Assembly (NCBI GenBank): GCA_963575745.1
Contig: CAUYUJ010016363.1
Location: forward strand, 163,141-227,140
Length of the DNA stretch: 64,000 bases
Direction: 5' to 3'
From: Prorocentrum cordatum
Taxonomy: Eukaryota; Sar; Dinophyceae; Prorocentrales; Prorocentraceae
Made by a program: the position numbers and the translations under genes. The notes under the pieces were generated by a model that had not been told where the DNA came from, made no database searches, and saw only the letters and a program-made list of their open reading frames with translations. Positions 40,013 to 55,628 of the stretch are shown here, in pieces. The stretch's first letter is position 1. Each line of letters opens with the position of its first letter.

Positions 40013-40086
40013 CCCGCGCCGACGGTAGGTTTCACGGCGGTTGGGCGGGCTCGCGCCCGCCTCCGCGGCCTGCAGTCGGGGCAGAG

Positions 40087-41253
40087 ATGCGTGCAGGGTG
40101 GGATGACAAAGCGGAAGAGGAAACACGGGCCGCAGTTGCGGATTCTTCAAAGAGCAGCGGCGGCGGTTGGGGAACAAGTGGGGGTTGGGGCGGCCGCAGT
40201 GGCGGATACGGCGGCGGAGGTGACCGCAGTGGCGGCTGGGGCGGCGGAGATTCTCTTGGCGGATGGAGAGGAAAAGCGCAGGATGGCGGCGACGGAAGTG
40301 ACCGCAGTCGCGGATGGGAGGGCGGCGGATGGGGCGGCAACGGATGCGAGGGTTGGGGAATGGAGGGCGCCCGCTGGTGGGACGACGAGGGTGGCTGGTG
40401 GAATGCATGGGAAGGTGGCCGCTCGAGTGCCTCGGCAGGTTCTCCTGCCGCGGAGCCCGCGGCCGCAACAGCGGCGGGCAAAGGAGGCGGTCCCCTGCTT
40501 CCCCCAGGGCGCGAAGAACAAGGCGCAGTTGCGCTGTTTCAAATTGTGCGCAATGAGCCGCTGCCAATTTTCAAGTTGGAATTCTTCGAGAACTTCAGGG
40601 CGAACTGGAACGGCAATTATAAGCAGCACAACGCGGCCTTGAAGTGGTTCCGAGACGAGTACGAAGACCGAGAAAACCCTTTCGGCAGCCGCACGCCCGT
40701 CTTCGGAGGTACCGCAGTTGCGGAGGAAATTTCGAAGATCCTTAAGTACCGCGCAAAGGGGAAGGCGCAGGACAACAGGGATTGGGACTGGGACCACACT
40801 GTCAAAGTGCCGTGGTCTTGGCTGGAGATGGTCGCGCAGATGGATGGACCTACAATGCTGCGCGTCGTGTGCGGCCCTGACAATGACCGCAGTCGCGGGT
40901 TGGTCCGCTGCGAGTGCCGCCCGTGCCCTAGCAGTCTCGACAACATGAGGCACACGAAAGGGGTGGACAGAGGACAGGCGCAAAGAATCCCTCTGCCCCA
41001 GTGGGATTTCGTCCTCATCCGCGACGACGGCTCGGGCATTCGCGTCCACCCATCCTGGTCTAGCCCGAAGTTCAACACGTATGAGGTGGAGCCGCACTCG
41101 CATCCCGTGCGGGGCCCGAGGGCAGGTCTCGGCAAGAGCGATGGCCACGGAACGTTCACGTTCTGGAAGATGCTGCACGCCCATCCGAATCCTGGGCGGT
41201 TCGACGCGAGCAAGGGGGCGCAGCTGCAACCGCGGTGGTCCGCGCAGCCTTGA
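40087..41253 (+). CDS. Transposon ORF 1: Gly/Trp-rich protein of unknown function (388 aa)
   Basis: I chose the ATG at 40087 because the frame upstream has only a TTG and runs through the CTC tract and the SL-like sequence. Residues about 20-120 are very rich in Gly and Trp (GGWG, GGWR, EGWGMEGARWWDDEGGWW). Residues about 150-388 form a compact-looking domain with FKLEFFENFRANWNGNYK, KVPWSWLEMVAQMDGP and a Cys-rich LVRCECRPC. No enzyme motif is recognised. The GW-rich part resembles low-complexity GW-repeat regions seen in Argonaute-binding proteins in composition only. Six copies of the 12-bp tag lie within the gene: two read AVA, four read RS[GR]G. Confidence 0.7.
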   Translation: MRAGWDDKAEEETRAAVADSSKSSGGGWGTSGGWGGRSGGYGGGGDRSGGWGGGDSLGGWRGKAQDGGDGSDRSRGWEGGGWGGNGCEGWGMEGARWWDDEGGWWNAWEGGRSSASAGSPAAEPAAATAAGKGGGPLLPPGREEQGAVALFQIVRNEPLPIFKLEFFENFRANWNGNYKQHNAALKWFRDEYEDRENPFGSRTPVFGGTAVAEEISKILKYRAKGKAQDNRDWDWDHTVKVPWSWLEMVAQMDGPTMLRVVCGPDNDRSRGLVRCECRPCPSSLDNMRHTKGVDRGQAQRIPLPQWDFVLIRDDGSGIRVHPSWSSPKFNTYEVEPHSHPVRGPRAGLGKSDGHGTFTFWKMLHAHPNPGRFDASKGAQLQPRWSAQP

Positions 41254-41918
41254 CACCGCAGTTGCGGGATTGCGCAGCCATGGAACCGCAGTTGCGGGGA
41301 CCGATCGCGTGACGCCGCGCTCGTTTGACTCACTATGCGCGCTTTCGGCCGCAGTTGCGGCGCTGCCTTCTAGCGACTTCATACAGCTTGGCCGCAGTTG
41401 CGGCGCTCCCACGACTGACCGCTGTAATTAGGTGCTTCGGGCGCGCATCACCTCCGTTGAAGCACTCGTGACGTTAATTAGCGCGGCCGCAGTTGCGGAG
41501 ACAGGTACTTAAACAGATGGATCCGCAGTTGTTCGTCGTCCTCGTCGCCCCTTCCCCGTCGTCCTCGTCGCAGTCTCCTCCCTCCGCCTTTCCTCCTCGT
41601 CGCAGTTCCTTCCGTTGGCCGTAGCCCGCCTCCGTTGGCCGAGTCATTTCCCGTCGTCCTCGTCGCAGTCCCCCCCGAGGGCCGCAGTTGCGGACTTTGT
41701 TGATTCCTCCTCCTCCGTTTCTGCCCCGTCATCCTCGTCGCAGTCCCCTTGCTCCTTTCACCCTCGTCTGAGCTCTTCGCGCCATCCTCTTCCGTCGCGT
41801 CCTCTCCATCCTCCTCTTCGCCTTCCTCGTCCTCATCCCCGCCGTCTCCCTCGTTGTCCTTCCTCTCCCAAGCCGGCCGCAGTTCCCCCGTCGGACGGGG
41901 GCCGCGCGCGGCCACGCC
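41254..41918. other. Spacer between transposon ORFs 1 and 2
   Basis: Six full 12-bp tags (41256, 41286, 41349, 41392, 41487, 41682), then a GTC/CTC pyrimidine-rich tract from about 41530. A weak SL-like sequence (GCCGTAGCC...TTGGCCGAG, 41618-41643) is far from the ATG at 41919. Confidence 0.6.
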
Positions 41919-43745
41919 ATGGACCCAGGTCGCAAAGCCGAGGTCGACAAGCGGTTCGCCGAGCTGAAGCAGCAACTGCGGGAAAGGTTCGGCCTGCAAG
42001 GGGCTGCCGCGGATGCCGCAGTCGCGGAGCCGACGGAGGACCGCAGTTGCGGAAGCCCCGAGCGACCGCCGCGCGAGGCCTCCCCGCAGTCGTCTAGCTC
42101 CTCGCGGGAATATCGGCCGCCGCCGCCGATAAGCGCTGCGAGTGGGAGCTCTGCTGGTGGGAGGCGCGAAGAGGCGCAGTTGCGCAGGGCGCACTTGACC
42201 CCCAAGGCAAAATGGGGGCCTCGGGCGCAGACGCCGACGAAGCAGCAGGACCAACCAGCAGTGACGGGAGCCGCCACCGAGACCGCAGTTGCGGGGGTGG
42301 CCGGCGAGCCAGGTGCCGCGCGCGGCTCATCTGGGAGCAGCGCGCCCTCGGCCGTGCTGCTCGCAGCCGAGTCCAAACGAGGCGCCCAACCCGAAGACGA
42401 GGCCGCCTCCCAGGAGAAAGCCGCCGAGACAATCGCCTCGGCCGATTCGCGGCCGAGGAAAAGGCCGCCTCCCACGGAAGGCTCGCCGCTGTCAGAACCG
42501 CAGTCGCGGGGTCGCGCGGGGCCTCCGTCGGAACCGCAGTTGCGGGAAGATGCGGGAGCACCGCGGAAGAAGCAGCGGACCAGGTCCCCTCCAGGGATAA
42601 ACTACGTTGGGGAACGCCCCAAGTGGAACGAAGGATTCCTTCGTACAGCAGACGGCAATCGGGTTCCGTCCACCATCGCTTTGGTGTTCAACGTGGTGGT
42701 CATCACGAAGGTGGCAACAAAGGAAGATGTCTTCAGGTGCATCTTGCACCAAACTGCGGCGGTCGTCTTCGTCGTATGGGACCCCGAGCTGTTCCGCACG
42801 GGGAACGTCGAAGGCGCTTGCAGCTACGACGTTCCCGTTGGACTCAGGACTGCCGTCGAAGACGCTGTCACTTTGAAAAACAACACCGCGGAGCCTTACT
42901 GGACGACGGTTGGCCTGTTCAGAGACACGGGCGTGGTGCTCGTGCGCCCGCACATCATCGCAGAGACCGCAGTTGCGGGTCATGTTGTTGGGGCCACCCA
43001 CGCCGTCACGATCCTGCGCTTTCGCCTGAAGGGCTCCGACATGAATCCTGCCGCGGTGATCCGTTTTGCCGTCGTGTCCAGACACGCAGTCACCGAACGT
43101 CTCCAACAGAAGATCACGCAATCAGAACAAACAGCGTGGCATCCAAGTTTCTTCAAGGACGCGGTTGCTTCCATCCATAAAAATGATGTGCGGTTCTTGT
43201 GCGGCCTGTTTGACATCCCGCCTGAGCAGCTCCAAGCATTTGGCCGCAGTTGCGGAGCCAGCTACACCTGCCCGATGGGGGTGGTGCTCAGGGCTGGACC
43301 CGCCCTGTTCGGAGGCCTTGTGGAGGGCACACGCGTCATGCATCCGAATTACGTCCTCCCCATTGGCCCGTGCGACGTGCGCATTGCGGACTACAACGCG
43401 GATTCTGCAGGGAGGCCGTCGAAGAACGATCCCCAGTGGCTCCCTGATTGGATGCATCGAACAAGCGACTCCATCATCTCTCGGCGCTGGGTCCCAGCGA
43501 AGTACATGCCCAAGTGGGAGGATGACCCTGACCGCAGTAGCGGAGTCAGAAGAAAGCTCGGCTTGGCAGCGCTGCCCCCAATCGGCAAGGTCATTCAGAA
43601 GGAGCTCAACGAGAAGACCTTCAGCACGCACTGGTGCGAGGGCATCCACCAAAACGTCGTCTTCGTCGGCCACGGACGCCAGAGTCGGGCGAGCAAGCGG
43701 AAGCACGAAGAGGCGCGATCTGCCGCAGTTGCGGACGAGCGGTGA
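41919..43745 (+). CDS. Transposon ORF 2: probable degenerate EEP-fold protein (608 aa)
   Basis: ATG at 41919 in a strong context (GCCACGCCATGG). Residues 1-225 are disordered, Ala/Pro/Ser/Arg-rich, with a basic patch (PRKKQRTRS) that could be a nuclear localisation signal. Residues about 226-590 are globular. The stretch VIRFAVVSRHAV... followed by NDVRFLCGLFDIPPEQL lines up in order and spacing with VMAVHVHHSL... and WDVKVCMGDFNMCMFQL of ORF 6. This suggests a related endonuclease/exonuclease/phosphatase fold in which the catalytic GDFN has become GLFD, so probably inactive. That relation is inference. Nine 12-bp tags lie inside, in all three frames (AVA, RSCG/RSSG, PQLR/PQSR). Confidence 0.65.
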   Translation: MDPGRKAEVDKRFAELKQQLRERFGLQGAAADAAVAEPTEDRSCGSPERPPREASPQSSSSSREYRPPPPISAASGSSAGGRREEAQLRRAHLTPKAKWGPRAQTPTKQQDQPAVTGAATETAVAGVAGEPGAARGSSGSSAPSAVLLAAESKRGAQPEDEAASQEKAAETIASADSRPRKRPPPTEGSPLSEPQSRGRAGPPSEPQLREDAGAPRKKQRTRSPPGINYVGERPKWNEGFLRTADGNRVPSTIALVFNVVVITKVATKEDVFRCILHQTAAVVFVVWDPELFRTGNVEGACSYDVPVGLRTAVEDAVTLKNNTAEPYWTTVGLFRDTGVVLVRPHIIAETAVAGHVVGATHAVTILRFRLKGSDMNPAAVIRFAVVSRHAVTERLQQKITQSEQTAWHPSFFKDAVASIHKNDVRFLCGLFDIPPEQLQAFGRSCGASYTCPMGVVLRAGPALFGGLVEGTRVMHPNYVLPIGPCDVRIADYNADSAGRPSKNDPQWLPDWMHRTSDSIISRRWVPAKYMPKWEDDPDRSSGVRRKLGLAALPPIGKVIQKELNEKTFSTHWCEGIHQNVVFVGHGRQSRASKRKHEEARSAAVADER

Positions 43746-44453
43746 GTGCGGCAAGACCGAGGAGCCGCAGTTGCGGAACAGAGCTCGGTACTACTGGGCG
43801 CCTGCTGCCTGCGTAGTGCATCCCATTAGCGATGGAGTGCATGTTGCGGTGTAGGATAGCCCGCAGTTGCGGGGTTGCGGTTGCGAAGCCGCAGTTGCGG
43901 TTGCGTATAATAGGAGAGCACGCGGTTGCGAAGCCGCAGTTTGCAATAAGTGTGCGCGCGCTGGGTCATCATCATCGTCGTCGTCCGTCCTCGTCGTCGT
44001 CGCTGCCGTCGTCGTCGTCGCGTCTGTCGTCTGTCGTCAGCAGTCGTCGTCGGTCGTCGTCGTCGTCAAGTCTGTCGTCTGTCGTCAGCAGTCGTCGTCG
44101 TCGTCGTCCCTCCTCCCTCCTCCCTCCTCCCTCCTCCCTCCTCCCTCCTCCCTCCTCCCTCCTCGTCCTCCTCCAGGCCGCATCCCCCCGCCACCTCCGT
44201 CCTAGCTCTCCTTCCCCTTCCCCTCCTCGTCCTCCTCCAGCTTGCACCCCCCTCCCTCCTCCAGCCTGCGCCCCCCCCAAGCTCTCGCCCGATATTTTGG
44301 ATTAAAACTGAGCCTTCAGTCGTCCGCAGGCATTCGGCTCAGCAGGTCGTTGGGCTCCTGGCACACACGCCTCCACCCTGAGCGACGGACGTCGTGCCAT
44401 AGTCCGCCATATCGGAGCTCCGGGCCCCAGTGGCGGACAGCGTCGGCACAGAT
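43746..44453. other. Spacer between transposon ORFs 2 and 3, with pyrimidine tract
   Basis: Tags at 43765, 43861 and 43889, then GTC repeats (43975-44105) and a CTCCCTC tandem array (44107-44165) running into a CTC-rich tract up to about 44280. Confidence 0.7.
44323..44345 (+). promoter_or_regulatory. Candidate spliced-leader relic, ORF 3
   Basis: TCCGCAGGCATTCGGCTCAG CAG matches the dinoflagellate spliced leader at about 18 of 22 positions allowing small gaps. It sits downstream of a polypyrimidine tract and 109 bp before the ATG at 44454. Confidence 0.45.
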
Positions 44454-46880
44454 ATGAACGACAGCGTCGGCACAGATAATGCCGCAGTGGCGGACAAGAA
44501 AGCCGCAGTGGCGGACGAGACAGCCGCAGTTCCAGGCGGAACGCAAGGGATCTTTCAGAGGGCCAACGCCTTGAGGTCTAGATTCAGGACAGGGGACAAG
44601 GTGCGCCTCCCTGTGCTCATGCTCGCCCCGCACACGGGCAACCGAGGCGGGCACTACCCTCAGCAGGAAAGGGTTCGGGAACTCGCTGTGAAAATCTTCC
44701 TGGCTGGATTCACGCAAGCCGAAGCTGACCACGAAGGTGTCTGCGTTCAGATGTACCCAGCACAAGAGCTGGTGCTGAGAAAAAAGGAGGACCCGAAGTT
44801 CCAGACGTACACAGAGTACAATCTGGAAAAAGCGACCGGCCACCTCGCTGCGTGCTTCGACCGCAGTTGCGGAACAGACGTTGCGTATGGGACGTGTTCG
44901 CACTCCCACTTGTGCCTCGTGTTGCGGGCGTGCGCCCTGGGAGCCAAGTGGCCCATCCCCCAAGGCATGGAGTTCACGGAGGACGAGAGCGCGAGGCTGA
45001 AGCGCGTGCTCGATAAGGACGGCAATCTCGACATGGCCGCAGTGGCGGAACATGACCCTGTCGCTAAGAAACTCGTGCAGGGGGGTATGCTCATGGAAGT
45101 GCTTAGCTGGAAAATCATGGACGAGGAACCCACTGGTGCTTCGCTCATCAGCCAGTCCCTCAATAAAGGAGCCGATTTTGCGTTGCGAACGACTGAACTC
45201 ACCGCGCTCCGTGTTCTGTGCAAGGCTGTTGACGCGGAGCTGCACGCCGCAGTTGCGGATCAGGTTGCCTTTGACAAGGTCAAGCTCTCCGTCATGCACG
45301 AACTCGATCGAGTCGTTCAGGACCCAGACTTCATTGAGCTGTTCTCGTTCGTTGTTGGGCTCGGGAGCACGAAAGCGCAGTTCATCCCCTTGCTGCTCCA
45401 GTTCTGCGAGGTCTACGTGAACTCCAGGAGAAGGGCCCTTCGGCTCGGTGCCTTCGGGGCAGCCAGCGAGCTTCCCGACGAAGTGCCGTGGGTCAAGGTT
45501 GCCGTGGTGATGCGATGCTACAGGAACGCGCCTGCGAGGAAGAGGGGCGTTGACACTCCTGTGTGGTGCCCTGACCCAGAACAATCGTGGAAGAAGAAGG
45601 AGTTCCGAGACTTCCTCATCGACATGAACTCGGCTCTCCGTTTGTACTTGTTCACGCTGAGCAAGGCCATCGACGGCATGGGCCCTGAGAAGGCGATCGA
45701 GTTCAAGGCGAACCTGTGCATACTGACCGCAGACGGCTTCATGCAGTACCTGAAGGACACCCACGTCAAGGAACGAAGTATCCCAGGACATCGTCAGGCG
45801 CTCCTCCGCGCTTGCGCGGAGGCCACGGGGAAGGTGGAGCCGAAGTCCAATCGGGACGCCCTTGAGAAGGCCCTCGGCGAAGTGGGAGTCGGAGGCGGGA
45901 AGCCCGATTGGTTCGATTTCAACGCGTTGCCGCGCCCAGAACCGAATGAGCCCGCAGTGGCGGGGAAGACAAAGGCTTCCGCAGAGGGGCACGAGTTGAT
46001 GCCGACGGTCATTTCCTTTGACCCCACGACGCAATTACCAACGAACCACCAGCGCAGCAGGGACACGACGGCCATTCCACGCGGATCCTTCCCTTTGCCA
46101 ATCGCCGAATGGAGGCGTTCAGCGGCAGCGAAGGAGCTGGGGCGGGAGCCTGCTTTGGTCAGCGCAGTGTTGCTGTGCCTTTGGGCGCGCCACATGTCCG
46201 CAGTTGCGGAAGCGCAAGTAGAGGTGTTGCAAGACGCTGACACAGAGAAACGCACCGTCAAGGCAACCGCTGCAAACGACGAAAAATGCATCGAGTTGTG
46301 GCCGTGCGTCCCAAAGGCATCCAAGGTGCACGCCGCAAGCACGCACCCCGAGAGGGTGGCCGTGCAAGTCTGGGTGAAAGGAGATCCAAATGGGGCCACG
46401 CCCACGACCTTCTACTTGCACCCCGAGTTCAAGCCGCCTGCGGACAAGACGCCCGCCGACGTGGCTGACCACGATGTGCGGTTGAGAGCATGGAAGTGGG
46501 ATGCGCAAGAGACAATGCACGTCTTCTGGGCAGTCAACAGAGTCACGGAACAGGAGATCCAGCAGAGAAACAGCCGTAATGAAAGCGCAGTTGCGCGCAT
46601 CAACATGGAGCTGGAGACGAAAGAATTGGCGGTGTGCGTGCCTGGGACAGGCGGGGTCGTGCTCGCCGTGAATGTCCCTGTGCTGGTGAATACCACGGCC
46701 GTGAAGAAAGGAGAAGAGCTCCTGTGGGAGGCGAGACCCAAAACCGCACCGAAGAAGAAGGCGGCCGAGGAGACGTGGAAGACGGACGCGGCCAAGAGGG
46801 CCAAAGGGAAGCCTTCGGGCCAGCCCGCGCCGAAGAAATCGAAGAAAGGGTTCGACGAAAGCGGGAAGATGTCGCTCTAA
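44454..46880 (+). CDS. Transposon ORF 3: 808-aa protein, possible ParB/Srx-like N-terminal segment
   Basis: ATG at 44454; the frame extends 24 bp upstream only through a GTG. The N-terminus contains two AAVADK/E tag peptides. Residues about 45-95 (KVRLPVLMLAPHTGNRGGHY...VRELAVKIFLAGF) resemble the start of ParB/sulfiredoxin-like domains in pattern; this is a weak call. A Cys/His cluster follows (AACFDRSCGTDVAYGTCSHSHLC). The middle is helical and unassigned. The C-terminus has GEELLWEAR, as at the end of some SET-like domains, then a Lys-rich tail (PKKSKKGFDESGK). Tags inside mostly read AVA, one RSCG. Function unknown; DNA binding is plausible from the basic tail. Confidence 0.65.
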   Translation: MNDSVGTDNAAVADKKAAVADETAAVPGGTQGIFQRANALRSRFRTGDKVRLPVLMLAPHTGNRGGHYPQQERVRELAVKIFLAGFTQAEADHEGVCVQMYPAQELVLRKKEDPKFQTYTEYNLEKATGHLAACFDRSCGTDVAYGTCSHSHLCLVLRACALGAKWPIPQGMEFTEDESARLKRVLDKDGNLDMAAVAEHDPVAKKLVQGGMLMEVLSWKIMDEEPTGASLISQSLNKGADFALRTTELTALRVLCKAVDAELHAAVADQVAFDKVKLSVMHELDRVVQDPDFIELFSFVVGLGSTKAQFIPLLLQFCEVYVNSRRRALRLGAFGAASELPDEVPWVKVAVVMRCYRNAPARKRGVDTPVWCPDPEQSWKKKEFRDFLIDMNSALRLYLFTLSKAIDGMGPEKAIEFKANLCILTADGFMQYLKDTHVKERSIPGHRQALLRACAEATGKVEPKSNRDALEKALGEVGVGGGKPDWFDFNALPRPEPNEPAVAGKTKASAEGHELMPTVISFDPTTQLPTNHQRSRDTTAIPRGSFPLPIAEWRRSAAAKELGREPALVSAVLLCLWARHMSAVAEAQVEVLQDADTEKRTVKATAANDEKCIELWPCVPKASKVHAASTHPERVAVQVWVKGDPNGATPTTFYLHPEFKPPADKTPADVADHDVRLRAWKWDAQETMHVFWAVNRVTEQEIQQRNSRNESAVARINMELETKELAVCVPGTGGVVLAVNVPVLVNTTAVKKGEELLWEARPKTAPKKKAAEETWKTDAAKRAKGKPSGQPAPKKSKKGFDESGKMSL

Positions 46881-47400
46881 TTAAGAAGCCGCAGTGGCGG
46901 CAGTCAGGGCGGCTTGCTCGCGTGACCGCAGTTGCGGGCAACAGGCCGAAGGGGGGGGCGCACGCGTGACCGCTGTTGCGGAGCGCTCGTGTAGTTTGCA
47001 GTGTCACTGCTTCTGTTAGCTGATGCCGCAGTAGCGGACCGCTGACGATCGAGCACGGAGGTTCGAAACGGACCTCCTCCCTCCCTTCTCCCTCTCCTCC
47101 CTCGCCCTTCCTCCACTTCCTCCCTCTCTCCTCCTCCTTTCTCCCCTTCCTCCCAAGTTGGAAGCCGAAACTACTCATTTCCTCACTCCCTCCCTCCCTC
47201 CCTGGAGGCCCTGGAGGGCCTCCGCCCTGGAGGGCCTGGAGGGCCCTGGAGGCCCTGGAGGGCCTCCCTGGAGGCCCTGGAGGCCCTGGAGGGCCTCCCT
47301 GGAGGCCCTGGAGGCCCTGGAGGGCCTCCCTGGAGGCCCTGGAGGGCCTGGAGGGCCCTGGGCTGAGGGCGGAGGCCCTGGAGGGCCTCCGCCCTCAGAA

Positions 47401-47478
47401 TGCTTCAAAGCAGTGCCGCGGCACTGCTTTGAAGCACCCAGGTGCTTCAAAGCAGTGCCCCGGCACTGCTTTGAAGCA
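47401..47478. repeat. Central hairpin pair of the transposon
   Basis: TGCTTCAAAGCAGTGCC arms form 17-bp perfect hairpins at 47401-47436 and 47443-47478. The pair is itself enclosed by an inverted repeat (CCCTGGAGGGCCTCCGCCCT CAGAA on the left, its complement on the right to about 47505). The core TTCAAAGCAGTGCC is shared with the terminal hairpins. Confidence 0.92.
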
Positions 47479-47549
47479 TTCTGAGGGCGGAGGCCCTCCA
47501 GGGAGGCGCGAGGATCGCAGGGGCCGAGGGAGGCCCTCCAGGGAGGCGT

Positions 47550-47571
47550 TCGTCTCGCCATCTGGCTCAAC
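47550..47571 (+). promoter_or_regulatory. Candidate spliced-leader relic, ORF 4
   Basis: TCGTCTCGCCATCTGGCTCA AC shares GCCAT and TGGCTCAA with the spliced leader, 71 bp before the ATG at 47642. Confidence 0.4.
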
Positions 47572-47641
47572 CGCGCGCGGCCCCACTGCCCGCACCTCCG
47601 CCTTGCCCGCAGTTGCGGCTGTGTCCAGCGCAGTAGCACAC

Positions 47642-48640
47642 ATGCCGACTTCGAGCGAATGGAGCCCTGTGTGCGTTGAGAAGGTCTTGTGCATCCGTGG
47701 AGGTTGGCTTGCGCAGACCACCCCCATCCCCGAAAAGGATGTCAAGGTGCTCCACGCAGGGCCCCTCGGAGAGATAAGCTTCGTGCACGTGAACATGCAA
47801 AAGGCTTGGCTGCTCAAGGTGTGCGCCAAAGGTAAACCGACCGCAGGGGCCTTGAAGGCCTCCAAGGCCTGGGACGCGCTGAAGAAAGAACTCGCGAAGC
47901 AGGGCGGCGCCGCAGTTGCGGACGAGGAGAGCGACGGCGACGCGGGGGACGAAGCAGATGACCCCATGTCGGCCCTGGTCAGCTCCACGGACGCCACGAA
48001 GAAGCAGGCAGCGACCCCGACCAGCGCCAAGAAGCAGAAGACTGGAACGCGTGCGGCGACTACTGGCCTGCCCAGGGGCGAGGCCGTGGAGTCGGCCATA
48101 GCCACTGTGCACTCCGTACAGATGCCCGCAAAGAGCCCCATGAAGTTTCCGCACGACACGGCCGTTCGAAACGTGCGGGTGGCCAGCTTCAAGCGGAGGA
48201 CGTTGTGGCTGGACGCTGCAGACCTTGGGTGGCTGATCGACATGATCGTGGACGACGTGAGCCTCGGCGGTGTCCCCGACATCGACGACGGCGACAAGGA
48301 CGAGGCCGCAGTGGCGGACAGGGACTGGGCAACGGCGGTTGACCCTGCCACCCCGCTGGCGAAGCAAAAGGAGGTCGACTCCCCCGTGGCGCAGGGGAGC
48401 GGCTCTGGCTTCACCGTCGTTTGGGACTTCAAGGGCGCTTGGGTCGCGACCATCACGCGAGAGTGTGCCAACAAGGGCAAAAGGATCGAGATGGATGTGA
48501 AGAAACTTACAAAGAAGAAGTGGCAGTCGGCGCAGTCGGTGAAGGGCTACGACTACGAGTGGGAGGGCATGACGCAGCACCAGCGCAAGCAAGCGGCTCT
48601 GGATTACCTCGAGCTCCAAATCCCCAGTCTGTTCGACTGA
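47642..48640 (+). CDS. Transposon ORF 4: 332-aa protein of unknown function
   Basis: ATG at 47642; upstream the frame runs only through the hairpin pair from a TTG. The N-terminal ~80 residues are compact (SPVCVEKVLCIRGGWL, ISFVHVNMQKAWLLKV). An acidic then Lys/Thr-rich linker follows (EESDGDAGDEADD...KKQAATPTSAKKQK). The C-terminus is globular (RRTLWLDAADLGWLIDMIVD and GFTVVWDFKGAWVATITREC). No catalytic motif is recognised. Two tags inside read AVA. A DNA- or chromatin-binding accessory protein is possible but unsupported. Confidence 0.65.
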   Translation: MPTSSEWSPVCVEKVLCIRGGWLAQTTPIPEKDVKVLHAGPLGEISFVHVNMQKAWLLKVCAKGKPTAGALKASKAWDALKKELAKQGGAAVADEESDGDAGDEADDPMSALVSSTDATKKQAATPTSAKKQKTGTRAATTGLPRGEAVESAIATVHSVQMPAKSPMKFPHDTAVRNVRVASFKRRTLWLDAADLGWLIDMIVDDVSLGGVPDIDDGDKDEAAVADRDWATAVDPATPLAKQKEVDSPVAQGSGSGFTVVWDFKGAWVATITRECANKGKRIEMDVKKLTKKKWQSAQSVKGYDYEWEGMTQHQRKQAALDYLELQIPSLFD

Positions 48641-49015
48641 GGCCCGAAGCCGTATGGGCCGCAGTTGCGGTGGGGCTACTGAGTGCCCGCAGTTGCGGGG
48701 TGGCTGGGTGCGCGTGAACACGCGGAGGGCGAGGCGGTGTGAGGAGGCAGGCGGAAGGTTTAGGGTGTTCCACGGGTGCACGCCTTAGTGCGCCAACTTG
48801 TGTGGGCGAGCGTTTTTCTTAGAGAAGCATGGAGTGAAGCATCGAAACCCTGTGCGCGCGATGATTGGGGCTTCCGCGCGGGCGTTGTTGAAATGTACCT
48901 CCTTCTTCGCCCCTCCGCATCGTCTTCAGTTGCTCCTCCCTCCTCCCCTCCCTCTTCCTAGTTCTGTAGCCCGCAGCCGAGTGCCCGGCCCGAGTCGTTC
49001 GCCACGCGACCGCTC
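48641..49015. other. Spacer between transposon ORFs 4 and 5 with splice-acceptor-like tract
   Basis: Tags at 48659 and 48687. At 48930-48961 there is a CTCCTCC...CTCTTCCTAG tract that looks like a textbook 3' splice site. It is followed by TCTGTAGCCCGCAGCCGAG (48963-48981), a weak SL match. Confidence 0.55.
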
Positions 49016-52000
49016 ATGGATGTTCCCGTGGGGCGGACATGGTATGGCGAGGAGGACGGAACGCATTTCGAGGTGGAGTGGCTCCATTACGACAGCGGCT
49101 GCGCACCGAGGAAAACGAAGTATGGCACCACTGGGCTCGCCAACATCTTGAGCCGCAGTAGCGGCGTTCCGTGCCCCAAGAAGATAAAGGTGCACGCATG
49201 TGCGGATTTTCCGTGCCTAGCGAAGTGGCCCGCGTCGCAGTACGGCCTTGCTGAGCCGCCTCGCTTTCATTTGCGGCCGTCTGCTTGGCGACCGGGCGCG
49301 ACGCCACCACCCGCAGTTGCGGCTCCAGGCGGCACCGCAGTTGCGGCTCCCTCGGCCCCTGCACACATAGCACCAGCAACACCAGCAGAACTCGCAGCTC
49401 CTGCGCAAGAAGGACACGCAGCTCCAGCACCAGAAGCACCCGCAGAACCCAAACCTCCAGCAGCCCCTGTGCCCGAAGCACCCGCAGCAGCAGTCCCTCC
49501 AGCTCCTCCAGCTCAAGTGCACGCAACACCAGACCCGCCTGCTGCGCAGGAGACCGCAATTGCGGTTGAAGCTCCTGAGGGAGTGGAAGCGGACAAAGAC
49601 ACACCACTTCCAGCACGCTTGCCACCAGCGCGGCCGCTGCCAGAGAACTGGTCGAAGACGCAGGTCGCATTCTTCCCGTGCCCAGACCCAAAGGCTGCAG
49701 CACGAGTTGCGGCGCCTGTTGGCGACGCCTTGCGGCCACGAGTCGCGGCGCCACCCCTGGCGCCAGAGAAAGGTGTACCTGTGGAAGACGCGCCAAAGAT
49801 CCAGGCCGCAGTGGCGGCGACGGTGCCTGACCGCGTGATGGCTCTCCTGAGGCAGATTCTGTCCGAGAATTCCTACATAGGGTATTCAGCTTTCATGCTG
49901 TTTGCCTTGCGGTTCGGGCGTCAACCTTACGTGTGGGAAGGCGAGAACCGCAAGGACCTCCTTGACTTCTACATGCCTTGGGCAAAGGAGAAGTGCACTG
50001 AGCCATGCGCCGTCGACGGCGTGGCGTGCGTACTCGCCGCTGCTGAGGATCTGTTCGGGGAATGGACAACGGTGGAACTCAGGCCCGTGACTCCCGAGAA
50101 CCCTCTCCATGAGGTGCGCCACTGGGTGGCCGCAGTTGCGGTGGGTGGCGTGTGCTCTGAGGGGGCGGACGCGTTGAACAGGTTCTACGGTCCTCTGGGA
50201 CAATGGGTCCTAGGGACTGTTTGCGATGGAAACTGCGGCATTGACCTTATGGCGATGATGTTGCAGAAACCGCAAAATGCCGAGACGCGCAAATGGCTTC
50301 GGGAGGAACTGTACGATTTCGGGGTGCGCCGCTGGGACGAACCGTGGTTGCACGACATGCTCGTTGTCACGCAGGAACTAACCTTGGAGGAGGTGCGGGC
50401 GTACCGCAGTTGCGGGGCCAGCGGCCCTGCTGGACCCATGGTCCTGCACGACTCCGAGGGCGAGGGCGAACCAGCAGAGGCGCCGAGAGAGGCGAGCGCG
50501 CCACGCCCCGCTCTCATGGCGGCGTTAGAGTGGCAGACGGGCGTGCAGGACATGGGTATATTGCTTGCCATGGCTGAGGCTATGCCCGAGGCGTTGCAGG
50601 AGGAGCAGATCAGGGCGCACGCACTGGCCAGCGCACGCCCAAAACCCGAAGTTGCGGAACAGAAGCGGCGCGTGTGCCCGCACATGCTCAGAGACCGCGA
50701 ACTGGTTTGCAAAGACCTGGAGGCGCACGCACGCAGTTGTGGTTGGATGGGCGAGGGCGTTCTGCCACGGAATTCAATCGCGTCTTTTTGCGAGCGGTTC
50801 ACGTGGCCGAAGGGCATGGGGGTCGTCCAGCAGCGCCAGGCCGTCTCCAAGTGGTTTCAAAACTGGCGCACACAAGGTGGACATGGCACGGCGGGCGTGC
50901 ATGGCCGACGCCGCGCGCGGGGCAACCAAGGGCGCCCGAACAAGGCTCCATGGCTGGAAGCCGCTCTGTACGAGTGGTGGTCCCACATGAGGTACTCCGT
51001 GGACTGGAAGGCGGTGGCCAAGCGAACCGCAGTTGCGGAGGAGAGGCCCAAGATGTTGGCCAGGTTCTCCCAATCCCTGCTGGTTACGAAGGCGAAGCAA
51101 CTCGTCGCGGACTACTGCGTGGAGACAATGAAGCGGGGAGGCAAACCGATGGTGCCGCAGTTGCGGCCTCGGTGGTGGGTGAAGTGGCGGCGCTCCTACG
51201 GCCTGAGCATGAAGAAGCCGAACCGCAAGTACAAGGTGCCAAAATGGTTGCTCCAATCTCGTTTTGAGACTATGATCTTGAACGTGGCCAGGGTCCGCGC
51301 AGCTGCAGAGGAGCTTCTGGGGTACGACCCGCACATCCTGAACTGGGACCAGTCGCCCTTTCACCACAACGAGTCGTCGTCGGCCTCGAAGCCGACCTTG
51401 GCTGTGAAGGGTGGCATTGTCCCGCTTGTCGAGGCGCATGACGACAGCAGGGCTCGGTGGACAGCGAACCTGACGGTGTCGAGCGACGCGGAGGACATCC
51501 GCAGTTGCGGACCACCGCCGGCGGAGCTAATGTTCAAGGGGGGATCTGTCATCGCTGAGGGCTTGGCCGCACATGCCCGCAGTCGCGGCTATCCGTCTTG
51601 GGTGAGCACGGCGACGTCCGAGAAGGGGTCCTACCGCGCAGACGACGTTGTATCATTCTTGCAGCGGCACTTGCGGGCCTGGCCCGACGACCCGCAGTTG
51701 CGGGGAAAGTGGCGCATCCTCATGGCCGACGACCATTCCCCGCACAAAGCAGACGCTGTGCGGAGACTCGCCTGGCAGCGCGGCTACGTGCTGATCATTC
51801 ACGGCGGGGGGGCGACCGCAGTTGCGCAGCCCGTGGACACGGACTTGAACCAGCACGTGAAGCGCCGGTACATTGCCCTCGAGACCAAAGCGCTGGTGCA
51901 GCAAATGGCGTTGGGGAAGCACGTGCCGCAGTTGCGGCGTTCCGATTGCGCCGACTTGATGCTGTCAGTGTTGGAGAATGTGCAGTTGCACTTGGACGCC

Positions 52001-53131
52001 GCGAAAGGTTTCCTGAAAGTGGGAATTCGAGCGCCCTTCGACAAGTCAGGAGATCTCGAGATTTGCCGAGAGGCGGCGGAACTCTGGGAAGCAGGGGGGC
52101 TGCGAGCAAAAGTGGACACCGCAGTCGCGGAGGTGAGGGAAGAATGCGAGCAGAAACGTTTGAAATGGTCCTACAATGACGTGCTGCGTCTCATACACGA
52201 ATACGAGAAACACGACGCCACAGATTCCGTGTTGGAGAAGCTCGGCGACGAAGCGCTAGGCCAGGAGCCAGGCCACGAGGAGGGCGATGAGGAGGGCGGG
52301 GAGGAGGAGGAGGAGGAGGTGCACGAGGAGCACGAGGAGGACGAAGAGCAAGAGGAGGCCTCGTGGGCCGAGGCTCTTGCGGAACAGTGCGATGCCGCAG
52401 TTGCGGCACCTGGGCCTCAAGGATCCTCGGTATCCATGGACTGCGTGGTCGACGCAGAGGCGGCCGAGCAGGTGGCAGTGGCGACGTCCTTGGCAGAAAC
52501 GCTCCGCGAGGCGGAAGATATGCTGCGCCAAGTGGGCATGGAGAAACTAGCGCAGGATTGCCGACAGCAACAACACAAACAAAAGAAGCGGTTGAGAGAG
52601 CTGGCGCGGGAGGACAACGAGGTCCTACGAGCGTTGACTGCCCAGCGAGACCACGAAGCCGCAGTGGTGGCGAAAAAGCGGCGCCTGGCTCTGGAAGCGA
52701 ACGACAGGACGAAGGCGTTGCACGATCTCAAGAAGCAGATTCGAGAGGCCGAGGCCGCCTTGAGGGCAAAGAAGGAGGCCGCAGTTGCGGTGGAAACGGC
52801 TTTGGCTAACAAACACGCCCTAGCGCAGTGGAATCCCGAGGAGTTCAAGATCAAGAAAAACAGGATGGCAGCTCTGGATCGCCTGGCTCGCGGAAAAGGC
52901 GTCCTCTCAGACGAGCAGAGGGGGGAGTGGGCATGGTTCAAGACGCATTGGGACGAGGAGATGTGCAAGCAGCACAAGGAGCAATGGCCGCTCACGTTTG
53001 CTGGGTGGCTGCAAAAAGTCGCGAACGACGCGGCGTCTGGGAACCGTTCGGCGCTGTCGCAGTTCGTGCATTCGGAAACAGTGAGAACCCTGGGAGGGCA
53101 AATGGCGCTGGTAATCCCAGCCCTAGCGTGA
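49016..53131 (+). CDS. Transposon ORF 5: OTU-like domain + DDE/D transposase (1371 aa)
   Basis: ATG at 49016. Order: N-terminal ~85 residues with Cys pairs; Ala/Pro-rich linker (90-260); OTU-like cysteine-protease segment with the Asp-Gly-Asn-Cys box at residues 404-407 (VCDGNCGIDLM); a basic, AT-hook-like RARGNQGRPNK (near 638); a pogo/CENP-B-like helix region (WLEAALYEWWSHMR, WWVKWRRSYGLSMKKP); and the DDE core with Asp778 (NWDQSPFHHNES), Asp905/906 (ADDHSPHKADAV) and Asp941 (QPVDTDLNQHVKRRY). The QPVD...K spacing is that of DDE_1-type transposases. Then come an acidic run (about 1090-1117), a coiled coil (about 1175-1290) and a C-terminal WPLTFAGWLQKV segment. About 17 full 12-bp tags are read in three frames, several within the catalytic core. 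It presumably mobilises the element via the TIRs; an active OTU is uncertain because its His is not identified. Confidence 0.85.
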   Translation: MDVPVGRTWYGEEDGTHFEVEWLHYDSGCAPRKTKYGTTGLANILSRSSGVPCPKKIKVHACADFPCLAKWPASQYGLAEPPRFHLRPSAWRPGATPPPAVAAPGGTAVAAPSAPAHIAPATPAELAAPAQEGHAAPAPEAPAEPKPPAAPVPEAPAAAVPPAPPAQVHATPDPPAAQETAIAVEAPEGVEADKDTPLPARLPPARPLPENWSKTQVAFFPCPDPKAAARVAAPVGDALRPRVAAPPLAPEKGVPVEDAPKIQAAVAATVPDRVMALLRQILSENSYIGYSAFMLFALRFGRQPYVWEGENRKDLLDFYMPWAKEKCTEPCAVDGVACVLAAAEDLFGEWTTVELRPVTPENPLHEVRHWVAAVAVGGVCSEGADALNRFYGPLGQWVLGTVCDGNCGIDLMAMMLQKPQNAETRKWLREELYDFGVRRWDEPWLHDMLVVTQELTLEEVRAYRSCGASGPAGPMVLHDSEGEGEPAEAPREASAPRPALMAALEWQTGVQDMGILLAMAEAMPEALQEEQIRAHALASARPKPEVAEQKRRVCPHMLRDRELVCKDLEAHARSCGWMGEGVLPRNSIASFCERFTWPKGMGVVQQRQAVSKWFQNWRTQGGHGTAGVHGRRRARGNQGRPNKAPWLEAALYEWWSHMRYSVDWKAVAKRTAVAEERPKMLARFSQSLLVTKAKQLVADYCVETMKRGGKPMVPQLRPRWWVKWRRSYGLSMKKPNRKYKVPKWLLQSRFETMILNVARVRAAAEELLGYDPHILNWDQSPFHHNESSSASKPTLAVKGGIVPLVEAHDDSRARWTANLTVSSDAEDIRSCGPPPAELMFKGGSVIAEGLAAHARSRGYPSWVSTATSEKGSYRADDVVSFLQRHLRAWPDDPQLRGKWRILMADDHSPHKADAVRRLAWQRGYVLIIHGGGATAVAQPVDTDLNQHVKRRYIALETKALVQQMALGKHVPQLRRSDCADLMLSVLENVQLHLDAAKGFLKVGIRAPFDKSGDLEICREAAELWEAGGLRAKVDTAVAEVREECEQKRLKWSYNDVLRLIHEYEKHDATDSVLEKLGDEALGQEPGHEEGDEEGGEEEEEEVHEEHEEDEEQEEASWAEALAEQCDAAVAAPGPQGSSVSMDCVVDAEAAEQVAVATSLAETLREAEDMLRQVGMEKLAQDCRQQQHKQKKRLRELAREDNEVLRALTAQRDHEAAVVAKKRRLALEANDRTKALHDLKKQIREAEAALRAKKEAAVAVETALANKHALAQWNPEEFKIKKNRMAALDRLARGKGVLSDEQRGEWAWFKTHWDEEMCKQHKEQWPLTFAGWLQKVANDAASGNRSALSQFVHSETVRTLGGQMALVIPALA

Positions 53132-53413
53132 TGCAGGCCGCAGTTGCGGACCCACAGGAAGTCCAGAGGGAAGTTGTTTTTCCAAGCGGCTCCCGCGCGG
53201 GCAGGAGATGAGGCAAAACCGCAGTTGCGGTCTTCCTGCTGCTGTGAAAATAATCCTTTCACAGTCCCTTGCAATCGTCGCCCTCCTTCTGCTTCTCCGC
53301 CAGTCCATTTGTTGTTCTTTCGGTTCCTTTGAGTCCTCGCCCTCCTTCTGCCACTCCTCGAATCCTCTTTGTCTCCTCCCTCCATCCGACCCCATGCCCA
53401 TTCACGATCCATT
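53132..53413. other. Spacer between transposon ORFs 5 and 6
   Basis: Tags at 53138 and 53219, then a pyrimidine-rich tract (CTCGCCCTCCTTCTGCCACT and similar) at 53275-53400. Confidence 0.6.
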
Positions 53414-53435
53414 TCCGTAGCCACCGTGGCTCGAG
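53414..53435 (+). promoter_or_regulatory. Spliced-leader relic, ORF 6 (best match in the transposon)
   Basis: TCCGTAGCCACCGTGGCTCG AG has the exact 22-nt length of the dinoflagellate spliced leader and matches it at 18 of 22 positions without gaps. It follows a polypyrimidine tract and precedes the ATG at 53459 by 23 bp. Confidence 0.6.
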
Positions 53436-53458
53436 GTGGCGCACGCGAAGACGCAAGC

Positions 53459-55444
53459 ATGTGGCCGCCCGCGCGCCCGAGCGCATCCTCAGGGAGTATG
53501 GACCGTGGACTTCGATTCGCCAGAACGGTGTTCATCCACAACGCTGAGGAGGAGGAGGGAGGCAAAGACGAGGAAGCCGCAGTTGCGGATGATGACGACG
53601 ACCAGCGGACGCAAGATGGCGACAGCACCGTCGCGTCCTCGGCTGCCTCCGCTGACGAGGCTGAGTCCCGGGGAGGTGCGGGAGCCGCAGTTGCGGCAGC
53701 ACATGACTCCTACATGCCGAGAGTGTTGTCGTCGCGGAGAACCTGGAAACGGGTGCCCATCATCGAGACAAGCAATCTGTCGGAAAAACAAAGAGCTCTT
53801 GTCGACGCATGGGAGGAGAAAACGGAGTTCGAAGCGGGACGGGTCGGCTTCTACGTGGCCAACTTCGGAGGGACTGCAGCTAGACCCACGCAACGCGCGG
53901 ACGAGTGGGCGCAGCTCCGCGCGAACCCTGCCCAGATCATCGCCCTCTGCGAGTGCGACGACGAGACCTGCGCGGTACTCAGTGGGGAGCACGACGCGAG
54001 GGACAGTGCAGCCGCAGTTGCGGACGATAGGTTTCGGAGTCGGACTCAATACAACTACCTGTGCGTTAAGGGCGGCGAGCCATCAGGGACCCTCCTTGTT
54101 GGCATGAGGGACCGCAGTGGCGGCCACATTGAACACGTAGACTTTGCGAGACTCTTCCACAAGCAGGAGAAGTCCAAAACGAAGAAGAAGAAGAAACAGT
54201 CCGCAGTTGCGGAGGCTCCTGCGCCAAAGCTGCACAACAAGTACTCCAGGGCGATGGTGGTGCGCGTCCACCTGGACCAGGCCGTGCCCCATTTGGGGGG
54301 CTCCTTCAACGTCATGGCGGTGCACGTCCACCACAGCTTGGCCAACCAAGACTGGGGCGTCACGAAGCTCCATGAGTTCTACAACTGGTTCGTCGCCTAC
54401 GTCAGGGAATGGGACGTGAAGGTCTGCATGGGGGACTTCAACATGTGCATGTTCCAGCTTGTGTCCTGGTGCCGCAATTGCGGCCTGACTGTGGACGTCG
54501 CCGCGTGGACCCCCTGGAAGACAGCAGGCGGCCAGCCCAGGGCAGACAGCATGGCGATTTTGTTCATAAACTGTCCTGGGCAGTACAAGCTTCACCATGG
54601 CCTGAGTGTTCTGCACGACCGTGAGGGCGGATTCTTGACGACCCAGCATGATCCGTCTTTCCCTGTCTTCGACTACACGAATGGCCCTGGGAAGATGCTT
54701 CAGACTTACGTGCCCAAGGCTGAGCCCGTTGAAAACAAGATGCGCGCCTTCCTGACGCCATCTGGCGAATCCTTGACCGCAGATGCGGAGTTCGAGCAAA
54801 GGATGGCGCGCAGGGAACGCGACGATTGGGTGCGCTATCCCTTCAGAGTGAAGCAGGGCAACCTCGACGACAAGATATGGCATGGCGCCTTCGGCAGGGC
54901 GAGGCACGGAGCGCACTTCCCTCTGGTGGCTTTCACGCACAATACGTGCCGCAGGTCACCTGAAAGACTCGCCGCGAGGTTGGAACGCAGGAAGGGCGGC
55001 AGGAAGGGCGGCAAGAAGGGCGGCAAGAAGGGCAGCTACGCGGACACCGCAGTTGCGGGGAAGGGCGTCCGACCCCAGATGGGAACCGCAGTTGCGGGGA
55101 GAGACGCTGGGGCTGAGCGAGCTGGGAACACGCCACCGCCGCAAGCTGCCAACGGCGACGATGCGACCCCTTCTTGTGCCGCAGTGGCGGCTGGGTCCTG
55201 GGACGCCAGCGGCAGCGGCGCATGGGAGGCGCGCAGTCCCGCCACGAGATGGCAGGGCTGGTCCTGGTGGGACTGGAGCTCGAGCGAATGGGGCGCTGAT
55301 GGCGCGCAGTGGTGGCCCTCTGATCATGCCGCAGTTGCGGACAATGCCCCTGAGGGCTCGCCTCCTCAGCGTGAAGTCGAGTGGGGCTCGAGCGGGCGAC
55401 CTGCCGAGCGCCCTCCGTGGAGCTTCGAGGCGCAGCGTTGGTGA
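53459..55444 (+). CDS. Transposon ORF 6: endonuclease/exonuclease/phosphatase (EEP)-type protein (661 aa)
   Basis: The ATG at 53459 follows the SL-like sequence; an open frame exists upstream through the pyrimidine tract but is disfavoured. Residues 1-130 are charged and disordered. The EEP domain runs about 130-430: VGFYVANFGG at its start, IIALCECDDE as the first acidic strand, VMAVHVHHSL, and the diagnostic GDFN (residues 325-328, in KVCMGDFNM). EEP enzymes are metal-dependent nucleases or phosphatases and are the endonuclease of many LINEs. Residues 511-525 are basic repeats (RKGGRKGGKKGGKKG), and the C-terminal ~120 are Trp/Gly/Ser-rich (WQGWSWWDWSSSEWGADGAQ), echoing ORF 1. Ten full tags lie inside. 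The role is not known; a nicking or processing nuclease is plausible. Confidence 0.8.
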   Translation: MWPPARPSASSGSMDRGLRFARTVFIHNAEEEEGGKDEEAAVADDDDDQRTQDGDSTVASSAASADEAESRGGAGAAVAAAHDSYMPRVLSSRRTWKRVPIIETSNLSEKQRALVDAWEEKTEFEAGRVGFYVANFGGTAARPTQRADEWAQLRANPAQIIALCECDDETCAVLSGEHDARDSAAAVADDRFRSRTQYNYLCVKGGEPSGTLLVGMRDRSGGHIEHVDFARLFHKQEKSKTKKKKKQSAVAEAPAPKLHNKYSRAMVVRVHLDQAVPHLGGSFNVMAVHVHHSLANQDWGVTKLHEFYNWFVAYVREWDVKVCMGDFNMCMFQLVSWCRNCGLTVDVAAWTPWKTAGGQPRADSMAILFINCPGQYKLHHGLSVLHDREGGFLTTQHDPSFPVFDYTNGPGKMLQTYVPKAEPVENKMRAFLTPSGESLTADAEFEQRMARRERDDWVRYPFRVKQGNLDDKIWHGAFGRARHGAHFPLVAFTHNTCRRSPERLAARLERRKGGRKGGKKGGKKGSYADTAVAGKGVRPQMGTAVAGRDAGAERAGNTPPPQAANGDDATPSCAAVAAGSWDASGSGAWEARSPATRWQGWSWWDWSSSEWGADGAQWWPSDHAAVADNAPEGSPPQREVEWGSSGRPAERPPWSFEAQRW

Positions 55445-55560
55445 TGGCCGCAGTTGCGGGCAAGTGGAGCATGATGTTGATTGCCGCAGTTGCGGACAGT
55501 GTACGCTGGAAAAATCATCATCATCATCAATCATAATCATCATCATATCATCATATCATA

Positions 55561-55628
55561 CGTTCAAAGCAGTGCCGGGGCACTGCTTTGAACGCGTTCA
55601 AAGCAGTGCCGGGGCACTGCTTTCGATC
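55561..55628. repeat. Subterminal hairpin pair, right end
   Basis: CGTTCAAAGCAGTGCC arms form a 34-bp hairpin at 55561-55594. A second at 55595-55628 has shorter arms (CAAAGCAGTGCC). They mirror 39214-39280, including the degraded outer member. Confidence 0.9.

Follow-up and report, generated by a model that had tools for sequence, protein, structure and literature searches.

A short, family-specific hairpin motif on the sense strand of the genes of large putative DDE-type transposons in Prorocentrum cordatum

Introduction

Several described systems share one or more features with the repeated motif reported here. The DNA uptake sequences of Neisseria and Haemophilus are short, exact motifs of self-identity that are repeated through genes, at the level of DNA and across a whole bacterial genome, and the Rickettsia palindromic elements are palindromes inserted inside open reading frames (ORFs). 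Transposons of the IS630-Tc1-mariner/pogo group carry TA at both ends, inverted repeats and a DD35D-like spacing. In RNA viruses and HBV, according to the portions of that literature drawn upon here, many short stem-loops, dispersed through the RNA and alike in their loop motif, have been proposed to bind one self-encoded protein. Lastly, for the yeast RNase III Rnt1p, AGNN is described as the main loop class although AHNN loops are also cut, and the first five base pairs adjoining the loop are essential, with a preference that extends over 7 nt (PMC4334505, in the part of that source used here).

By what means a mobile element distinguishes its RNAs from host RNAs and from the RNAs of rival elements is an open question, to which the sequences described below offer a possible answer. 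The window (the whole 64-kb stretch of P. cordatum DNA that was analysed) had earlier been read from its letters alone, and this sequence-only reading had pointed to about 70 copies of a 12-bp interrupted palindrome, spaced about every 220 bp. In a literature search at the level of titles and beginnings of abstracts, with incomplete journal coverage, neither this exact 12-mer nor the tag system was found to be described.

Results

The motif lies within a transposon, which we will refer to as family A, whose features are as follows.

39179..55663, + strand: whole transposon, 16.5 kb, six genes, ends TAATCC...GGATTA; based upon matching inverted ends and other copies with the same ends and unique flanks
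39179..39208, + strand: left terminal inverted repeat, which matches the right one at 28 of 30 bases; left end recovered from 8 of 10 further copies
55634..55663, - strand: right terminal inverted repeat; right end recovered from 7 of 10 further copies
40087..41253, + strand: ORF1 from the first in-frame ATG (open from 39829), with a Gly/Trp/Arg-rich N-terminus; relatives in C15, L012 and family B
41919..43745, + strand: ORF2, 608 aa, without a significant Pfam match
44454..46880, + strand: ORF3 from the first in-frame ATG, 808 aa, without a significant Pfam match
47642..48640, + strand: ORF4 from the first in-frame ATG, without a significant Pfam match
49016..53131, + strand: ORF5, 1371 aa, a putative DDE-type transposase judging from invariant D778, D905 and D941 and weak Pfam DDE_1 matches in relatives
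53459..55444, + strand: ORF6 from the first in-frame ATG, without a Pfam match; endonuclease/exonuclease/phosphatase-like by eye only

At least 128 matches to this element are present in the genome. In 20 end regions from 10 copies, the 15 ends that could be found, 8 left and 7 right, all had TAATCC/GGATTA and unique flanks, and the remaining five regions lacked the exact search string. These TA-ended inverted repeats are consistent with a TA target duplication. Palindromic arrays are situated close to the ends of the element. With a cutoff of E=1, a search of the window against Rfam gave 21 matches, all of them below the gathering score, and the best fell on palindromic and repeated stretches around 39.2, 47.2-47.5 and 55.5 kb. 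A weak match to a group II intron (41321-41482, minus strand, E 0.84) overlaps two tags.

The assignment of ORF5 is based upon an alignment of 31 rows in which D778, D905 and D941, a putative catalytic triad picked by eye, occupy invariant columns, with 35 residues between D905 and D941. The Pfam model DDE_1 weakly matches two of the 31 relatives (best E 0.0079) and DDE_3 matches one (E 0.074); the ORF5 of the window element matched no Pfam transposase model at E up to 0.1. A Pfam scan of the six ORFs and six relatives' ORFs gave nothing significant and no RNA-binding domain, and in viral_contigs the pattern of the terminal repeats was unmatched and no relative of ORF5 was found.

A scan of the whole window finds 67 exact copies of the motif CCGCAGTNGCGG, which extend from 40130 to 55495 and are without exception on the + strand; no copy was found on the minus strand or in the remaining ~47.5 kb. 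The number expected by chance in the window, as estimated by dinucleotide shuffling, is 0.09, and the highest single shuffle contained one. Only four sites combine an unchanged AGTN loop with one mismatch in the stem, and the form GCGC-AGTT-GCGC adds three further sites. In all, the element contains 71 stem-AGTN-stem hairpins with a mean spacing of 219 bp, one of which (GTGC-AGTT-GCAC at 51980) may be a chance occurrence. The number, spacing, strand, absence elsewhere in the window and improbability of the motif given in the sequence-only reading are thus all borne out. The free loop position of the 67 exact tags is T in 47, G in 11, C in six and A in three, and the flanks have nothing in common past the adjacent base. 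The tags are located as follows (all on the + strand).

40130..40898: ORF1 tags at 40130, 40194, 40224, 40302, 40712 and 40887 (CCGC/GCGG), and at 40523 (GCGC/GCGC)
41256..41693: spacer tags 3' of ORF1 at 41256, 41286, 41349, 41392, 41487 and 41682
42016..43734: ORF2 tags at 42016, 42041, 42283, 42498, 42534, 42967, 43244, 43532 and 43723, and at 42174 (GCGC/GCGC)
43765..43900: spacer tags 3' of ORF2 at 43765, 43861 and 43889
44482..46596: ORF3 tags at 44482, 44503, 44861, 45037, 45247, 45952 and 46198, and at 46585 (GCGC/GCGC)
46889..47037: spacer tags 3' of ORF3 at 46889, 46926 and 47026; also CCGCTGTTGCGG at 46970
47607..48317: tags in or shortly 5' of ORF4 at 47607, 47910 and 48306
48659..48698: spacer tags 3' of ORF4 at 48659 and 48687
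49153..52790: ORF5 tags at 49153, 49311, 49335, 49806, 50130, 50404, 51027, 51155, 51499, 51577, 51692, 51926, 52119, 52395 and 52779
53138..53230: spacer tags 3' of ORF5 at 53138 and 53219
53577..55340: ORF6 tags at 53577, 53685, 54012, 54112, 54201, 55047, 55086, 55179 and 55329
55448..55495: tags 3' of ORF6 at 55448 and 55484

Forty-nine of the 67 exact tags lie inside the six ORFs, where they occur in three phases (31, 13 and 5), and the other 18 are in spacers. In family A the spacer tags are placed significantly close behind stop codons (p=7e-5 after masking), a pattern that was not seen in family B (13 tags, p=0.37) or C15 (7 tags, p=0.42), both described below. As this pattern holds in family A only, little weight is given to the argument that the tags occur only in mature mRNA.

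In the P. cordatum genome (4.13 Gb) the motif has 33,633 sites, compared with 5,964 for a control in which it is written backwards, which corresponds to an average of one per ~123 kb versus one per ~0.25 kb inside the element. Its confinement to a single element holds within the window but not genome-wide, where the sites include other copies and relatives. Among the matches listed, the motif cluster C84 is a 97.9% copy of the window element, C15 is a diverged relative of it and C4 is a fragment of another relative, all with their tags on one strand; a small cluster, C3, has the motif on both strands and no ORF homology. When stems of the forms CCGC, GCGC, TCGC and CCGT were counted, four elements or fragments carried no reverse copy of their own tag, the plus/minus numbers being 70/0 for A, 51/0 for C15, 7/0 for L012 and 48/0 for B.

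Among 29 other copies and the window, none of 192 tag bases varied, compared with 86 of 3739 other bases, a rate at which about 4.4 varying tag bases would be expected. Forty-nine window tags could be aligned to C15, which is 33-65% identical; 21 of these are tags at identical codons, and gaps of at least two residues lie opposite only four of the 49. In 42 relatives, including the window proteins, tag-encoded peptides, of which AVA is the most frequent, occurred 258, 74 and 28 times versus 5.5, 2.5 and 1.0 expected from shuffling.

Based upon its pattern of change, the motif is best read as an RNA hairpin with a CCGC/GCGG stem, an AGUN loop and a covarying fifth flanking pair, of which the family A element has ~70, with fixed loop and compensatory stems. 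Double changes in the stem were compensatory at 15 of 31 tag-loop sites but at only 153 of 1993 control sites (p=3e-9); as two of the 15 (40523 and 46585) are common to C15 by descent, the 31 sites are not all independent. At homologous codons pairing is kept both at 42967, where CCGC..GCGG becomes TCGC..GCGA, and at 49153, where CCGCAGTAGCGG becomes CCGTAGTGACGG. Among single stem changes, C>T, which keeps a G-U pair, exceeds G>A by 13:3 versus 63:73 in the control (p=0.015, based upon 16 changes). With Watson-Crick, G-U and G-A pairs counted, the fifth position is paired in 56 of 71 family A hairpins (reached by 0 of 5000 permutations) and 44 of 51 in C15 (3 of 5000); G-A joined these classes only after it was noticed in the window, and it is not enriched in C15 (10 versus 11.3 expected). 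Watson-Crick pairs alone number 18 versus 14.0 expected in A and 27 versus 18.1 in C15. No pairing signal was present at the next two offsets in either element. Isolated 12-mers are predicted to fold at about -5 kcal/mol, whereas the predicted minimum-free-energy folds of three stretches of 61-66 nt did not form the tags as local hairpins, one of these folds having two tags paired together.

The genome also contains a second family, family B, with a tag that differs. The one element of it that was fully read is 24.1 kb long, ends in a 31-bp terminal inverted repeat with TAATCC, and contains CCGC-AGCA-GCGG 48 times on the plus and 0 times on the minus strand; the general form of its tag is CCGC-AGNA-GCGG. 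A third code, CCGC-AATN-ACGG, is found in L014, a relative in a bacterial metagenome-assembled genome record (21 exact copies plus, 0 minus). The fifth pair covaries here also, with Watson-Crick and G-U pairs at 41 of 48 tags in B (27.6 expected; 0 of 10000) and 19 of 22 in L014 (14.9 expected; 12 of 10000). AGTA is the sole loop form common to the codes of A and B, and in A, C15, L012 and B no tag of the other family was found that does not also fit the element's own. At window position 51692 the tags read CCGCAGTTGCGG (A), CCGCAGTCGCGG (C15), CCGCAGCAGCGG (B) and CCGCAATCACGG (L014). Tags at common codons number 4 of 32 between A and B and 1 of 16 between A and L014. In the phylogenetic tree, B and L014 are separated by supported forks and branch among rows with peptides indicating AGUN, the tag types of the metagenomic rows being inferred from peptides; the family B row itself has a weak peptide signature (AVA 3, AAAA 2, RSSG 1, PQQR 1).

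The L014-type tag was also sought in P. cordatum, where CCGCAATNACGG had 751 sites versus 569 for its backwards control, scattered among the matches listed, and in view of these numbers and this placement it is near background. A search for a third family with the P0030 piece gave 131 scored matches, and those listed were mostly known family A places.

Discussion

The fixed orientation, the covariation of the hairpin, its maintenance at homologous codons and the different tag of each family, even at one codon position, are established at the level of sequence. We consider it probable that the motif serves as an RNA hairpin tag specific to its family, with dozens of copies spread over the sense strands of all genes of a large DDE-type transposon. 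Such a tag would act in mRNA, where a protein encoded by the element would read the hairpin of its own family on its own mRNAs, and the element could in this manner recognise its transcripts, so that they are selectively protected, exported, translated or packaged. The reader is likely to be element-encoded, since two codes would be superfluous for a host reader that serves both families. A first candidate for an RNA-binding protein that reads the tag is ORF1, whose N-terminus is rich in Gly, Trp and Arg; a PDB sequence search for the reader gave nothing significant (best E 0.44). The suggestion of a self-recognition tag or an array of binding sites made in the sequence-only reading gains support from the second family with its different tag. 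A more tentative proposal, to which we give slightly less than even chances, is that the tags form an orthogonal and switchable code of RNA self-identity, in which an element-encoded reader bars rival families from the element's products and the code changes in place, across the whole element, as the reader changes.

As all of the genes lie on one strand, gene orientation is confounded with element orientation, and the tags follow the one as well as the other. An element protein might therefore read oriented hairpins or half-palindromes in double- or single-stranded DNA, as sites of polarity or self-identity for transposition or replication. This would suit an element that is a DNA transposon and has palindromic arrays close to its termini, the short distance (about 170 bp in A and 370 bp in B) that separates the last tags from the right end, and the spacer tags of B and C15, which are not limited to positions after stops. 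However, the left ~900 bp of A and ~620 bp of B are without tags, the central AGT is fixed yet the base N that would complete the palindrome is free, and changes that keep G-U outnumber those that make C-A. We regard DNA-level recognition as unlikely.

It is distinctly improbable that the tags are a host RNA-processing signal, in which AGNN-capped hairpins serve as RNase III-type (Rnt1p-like) or other processing or stability sites. The loops of A (AGUN) and B (AGCA) are of the AGNN form and that of L014 (AAUN) of the AHNN form, and five pairs covary here, five being the number required according to the part of PMC4334505 used here. In contrast to the 7-nt preference given in the same part, no pairing signal was seen past the fifth pair in A or C15; a common host reader would not account for two tags in one genome; and dozens of cut sites would be expected to destroy the transcript. 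Still more improbable is pairing between tags that zips transcripts together or condenses them. A family A tag with N=T, as in the majority, is self-complementary with two G-U pairs, and the one predicted fold with neighbouring tags paired would agree with this, but tags with N=C, G or A occur at homologous sites, those of B and L014 would have central mismatches, and a fixed AGT with a free N better suits a loop.

A 12-bp mobile palindrome that invaded the element, akin to the Rickettsia palindromic elements, had been suggested as a tiny mobile repeat, and copies in coding regions in three phases would fit this; the idea fails because 21 of 49 aligned tags sit at identical C15 codons, and with only four facing gaps, flanks unshared past the adjacent base and compensatory stem changes, it is refuted as the main explanation. 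A protein-level repeat or artefact of codon usage, for which the prevalence of AVA might speak, has practically no probability left, being refuted by the three phases and 18 noncoding copies, and the rest of the GC-rich window has no copy.

Comparison with Known Systems

Two different codes are present within a single genome, a further code is known from elsewhere, and different tags occur at a common codon. This makes the coevolution of the proposed reader and its code directly testable and could provide orthogonal RNA tags with their binding proteins.

The comparison with DNA uptake sequences, drawn in the sequence-only reading, holds for a short, exact, many-copy motif that runs through genes, but is otherwise weak: the tags are hairpin-like with a fixed loop, oriented with the genes, and dense only in the elements, the genome average being one per ~123 kb. 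Like the Rickettsia palindromic elements they are palindromes within ORFs, but many are kept at homologous codons without insertion. The elements themselves resemble IS630-Tc1-mariner/pogo transposons in the TA at both ends, the inverted repeats and the DD35D-like spacing, and differ from them in their length of 16-24 kb, six genes, hairpin tags and, in the window protein, the absence of a Pfam transposase match. With the Rnt1p hairpins they share the AGNN loop and five covarying pairs (PMC4334505, in the part used here), whereas the tags number dozens per element, have no signal past the fifth pair and differ in their loop by element family. Like the dispersed packaging signals of RNA viruses and HBV, as portrayed in the portions of literature referred to above, the ~70 stem-loops, known here from sequence, have a common loop motif; unlike them, they are near-identical 12-mers that recur in all genes of a DNA transposon for which no coat protein is known, and they differ by family within one genome.

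The window element and its copies

Within the window, the tag described below is confined to a transposon of six genes (ORF1-ORF6), which we refer to as family A:

39179-55663, all six ORFs on the plus strand: family A transposon, inverted ends starting TAATCCGA
49016-53131, plus strand: ORF5

In other copies, TAATCC/GGATTA and unique flanks were present at every end that was located (8 left and 7 right), the survey covering 20 end regions of 10 other copies by exact-string match, with the string absent from the remaining five regions. Three invariant columns of ORF5 (D778, D905, and D941) in a 31-row alignment are read as the DD35D triad of a transposase, for which the backing from Pfam was weak (2 of 31 rows). 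Upstream of this DDE part, ORF5 contains HWVA...DGNCGID, which by eye resembles a Ulp1/C48-type cysteine protease and which we take to be a candidate for one. Two weak protein matches of ORF3 carry the name Prorocentrum cordatum, and we take this dinoflagellate to be the host. The ORF3-ORF4 interval (47190-47540) carries short GGAGGCCCTCCAGG-type repeats and sub-threshold microRNA-like matches to Rfam.

At least 128 matches to the ORF5 core, including the window's own, are present in the genome (128 scored out of 1088 candidates). When 30 of these loci, the window being one of them, were fetched and compared, 28 of the 29 others matched the window at 99.69% identity or more along the stretch compared, and one at 98.4%, which indicates that the amplification of family A was very recent. 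None of the 192 tag bases varied among these copies, as against 86 of 3739 other bases.

A tag repeated along the element

The window contains 67 copies of CCGCAGTNGCGG between 40130 and 55495, where 0.09 are expected, and all 67 are on the plus strand. Just four window sites combine an intact AGTN loop with one stem mismatch, and three further sites have the form GCGC-AGTT-GCGC. The coding tags (49 of 67) are read in three phases, giving AVA (31), RS[CRSG]G (13), and PQ[LSW]R (5), and the other 18 are in spacers. Comparison of the tag flanks in the window revealed nothing in common past the adjacent base. In the searched genome (4.13 Gb, 21,875 contigs), of which the window is C15514:163141-227140, 33,633 sites were found, compared with 5,964 for the same motif reversed. 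A small motif cluster at another locus (G000:C3:993524-995450) looks like another kind of repeat: both strands are represented, a spacing of 354 bp recurs, and the locus shares no homology with the window ORFs.

Evidence for a hairpin

As AGT is constant in the centre of the tag and the fourth base is free, a CCGC-AGUN-GCGG hairpin fits better than a DNA palindrome. When family A, C15 (a diverged relative), L012 (a fragment of another relative), and family B (a second family, described below) were pooled, pairing was restored in 15 of the 31 double stem changes found with the tag loop, two of these 15 being common to A and C15 by descent; the control sites gave 153 of 1993. Among single stem changes, C>T, which retains a G-U pair, was commoner than G>A (13:3 versus 63:73, p = 0.015). 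Covariation was also seen at the pair directly outside the stem in A, C15, B, and L014 (a bacterial-MAG relative), and was absent from the next two positions outward in A and C15. The outer-pair counts for A and C15 include G-A, a class added after the window had been inspected; Watson-Crick pairs alone number 18 in A (14.0 expected) and 27 in C15 (18.1 expected). Counter to the hairpin, the tags were not local hairpins in the predicted folds of three longer stretches.

Other families with other tags

Family B, located in the same genome (contig C15888) using a piece of L014 as query, is a 24.1-kb element with a 31-bp TIR with TAATCC and the gene order of family A, to which it is 39% identical in the main ORF5 segment and 24% in ORF3. 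It has 48 tags, of which 44 are CCGCAGCAGCGG; every one lies on the plus strand. The form AGTA, which fits both tags, occurs in two family B and three window tags; apart from it, neither family's tag was present in those elements of the other family that were read. Clusters of CCGCAGCAGCGG on contigs C114 and C146 are on one strand each among the matches listed. The genome total for CCGCAGCAGCGG is 15,283 versus 12,336, so that most single sites are background.

The palindrome TTCAAAGCAGTGCC[C/G]GGCACTGCTTTGAA lies near both ends of the window element (39222-39283 and 55562-55622) and once inside it (47401-47479), and the ends of family B carry a different one, CCCCCTCTGTCACAGAGGGGG; these palindromes may be family-specific transposase sites.

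L014 (NHDG01000044.1) was deposited in a Planctomycetia MAG, TMED53, and its ORF5 is 36% identical to that of the window. Its plus strand has 21 copies of CCGCAATNACGG and one of TCGCAATTACGA, and its minus strand none; this tag is near background in P. cordatum (751 versus 569). The contig resembles a fragment of such a transposon from a eukaryote and is probably misbinned. At the codons of the tag at window position 51692, each of the four elements (A, C15, B, and L014) has a different tag; otherwise few codon positions are common (A and B, 4 of 32; A and L014, 1 of 16). That each family carries its own tag is drawn from the sequences of several elements of the A type, a single element of family B and a single contig for L014.

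Age and probable switching of the tag

C15 has the same gene order as the window element, with protein identities of about 33-65%, and 51 tags with the stems CCGC (42), GCGC (6), TCGC (2), and CCGT (1). Of the 71 window hairpins, 49 could be aligned to C15; 21 of the 49 face a tag in precisely the same codon positions, and two of these 21 show compensatory changes. Tag-encoded peptides were far above shuffled expectation in 42 relatives, counting the window's proteins, at identities down to 28%; the exception was P0025, a protein relative that groups with L014 in the ORF5 tree. These comparisons indicate that the tag is old.

In a 34-row ORF5 tree, whose root is a drawing aid, B fell within a group of 13 rows (support 97/94) and L014 with P0025 within another of 20 rows (94/89). 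Because B and L014 are in separate groups, each surrounded by rows whose peptides indicate an AGUN tag (the tags of metagenomic rows being deduced from peptides), we read the tag as having changed at least twice.

Proposed mechanism and known systems

The tag, its covariation, age and family specificity are results of sequence comparison; a reader, action in RNA and a purpose are what we infer for it. An element-encoded protein would bind its own family's hairpins along its own mRNAs, and the bound hairpins would mark these mRNAs for selective handling. The presence of two codes in a single nucleus suggests that the elements, and not the host, encode the readers. The main rival is recognition of the tags at the DNA level; gene-sense orientation, a hairpin of fixed loop and tolerance of G-U together point to action at the RNA level. 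According to the published genome paper (PMC10666404), transcription in P. cordatum is polycistronic and followed by spliced-leader trans-splicing. In family A, 16 of 19 spacer tags lie in the first third after the stop codon (p = 7e-5 with pyrimidine tracts masked), as expected if mature mRNAs carry the tags; this bias was absent in B and C15, where it was also looked for.

Of the ideas already known, dispersed viral packaging signals and the AGNN loops of Rnt1p (PMC4334505) come closest. As these are set out in the portions of the sources available, family-specific and switchable tags throughout a DNA transposon go beyond what either of them covers.
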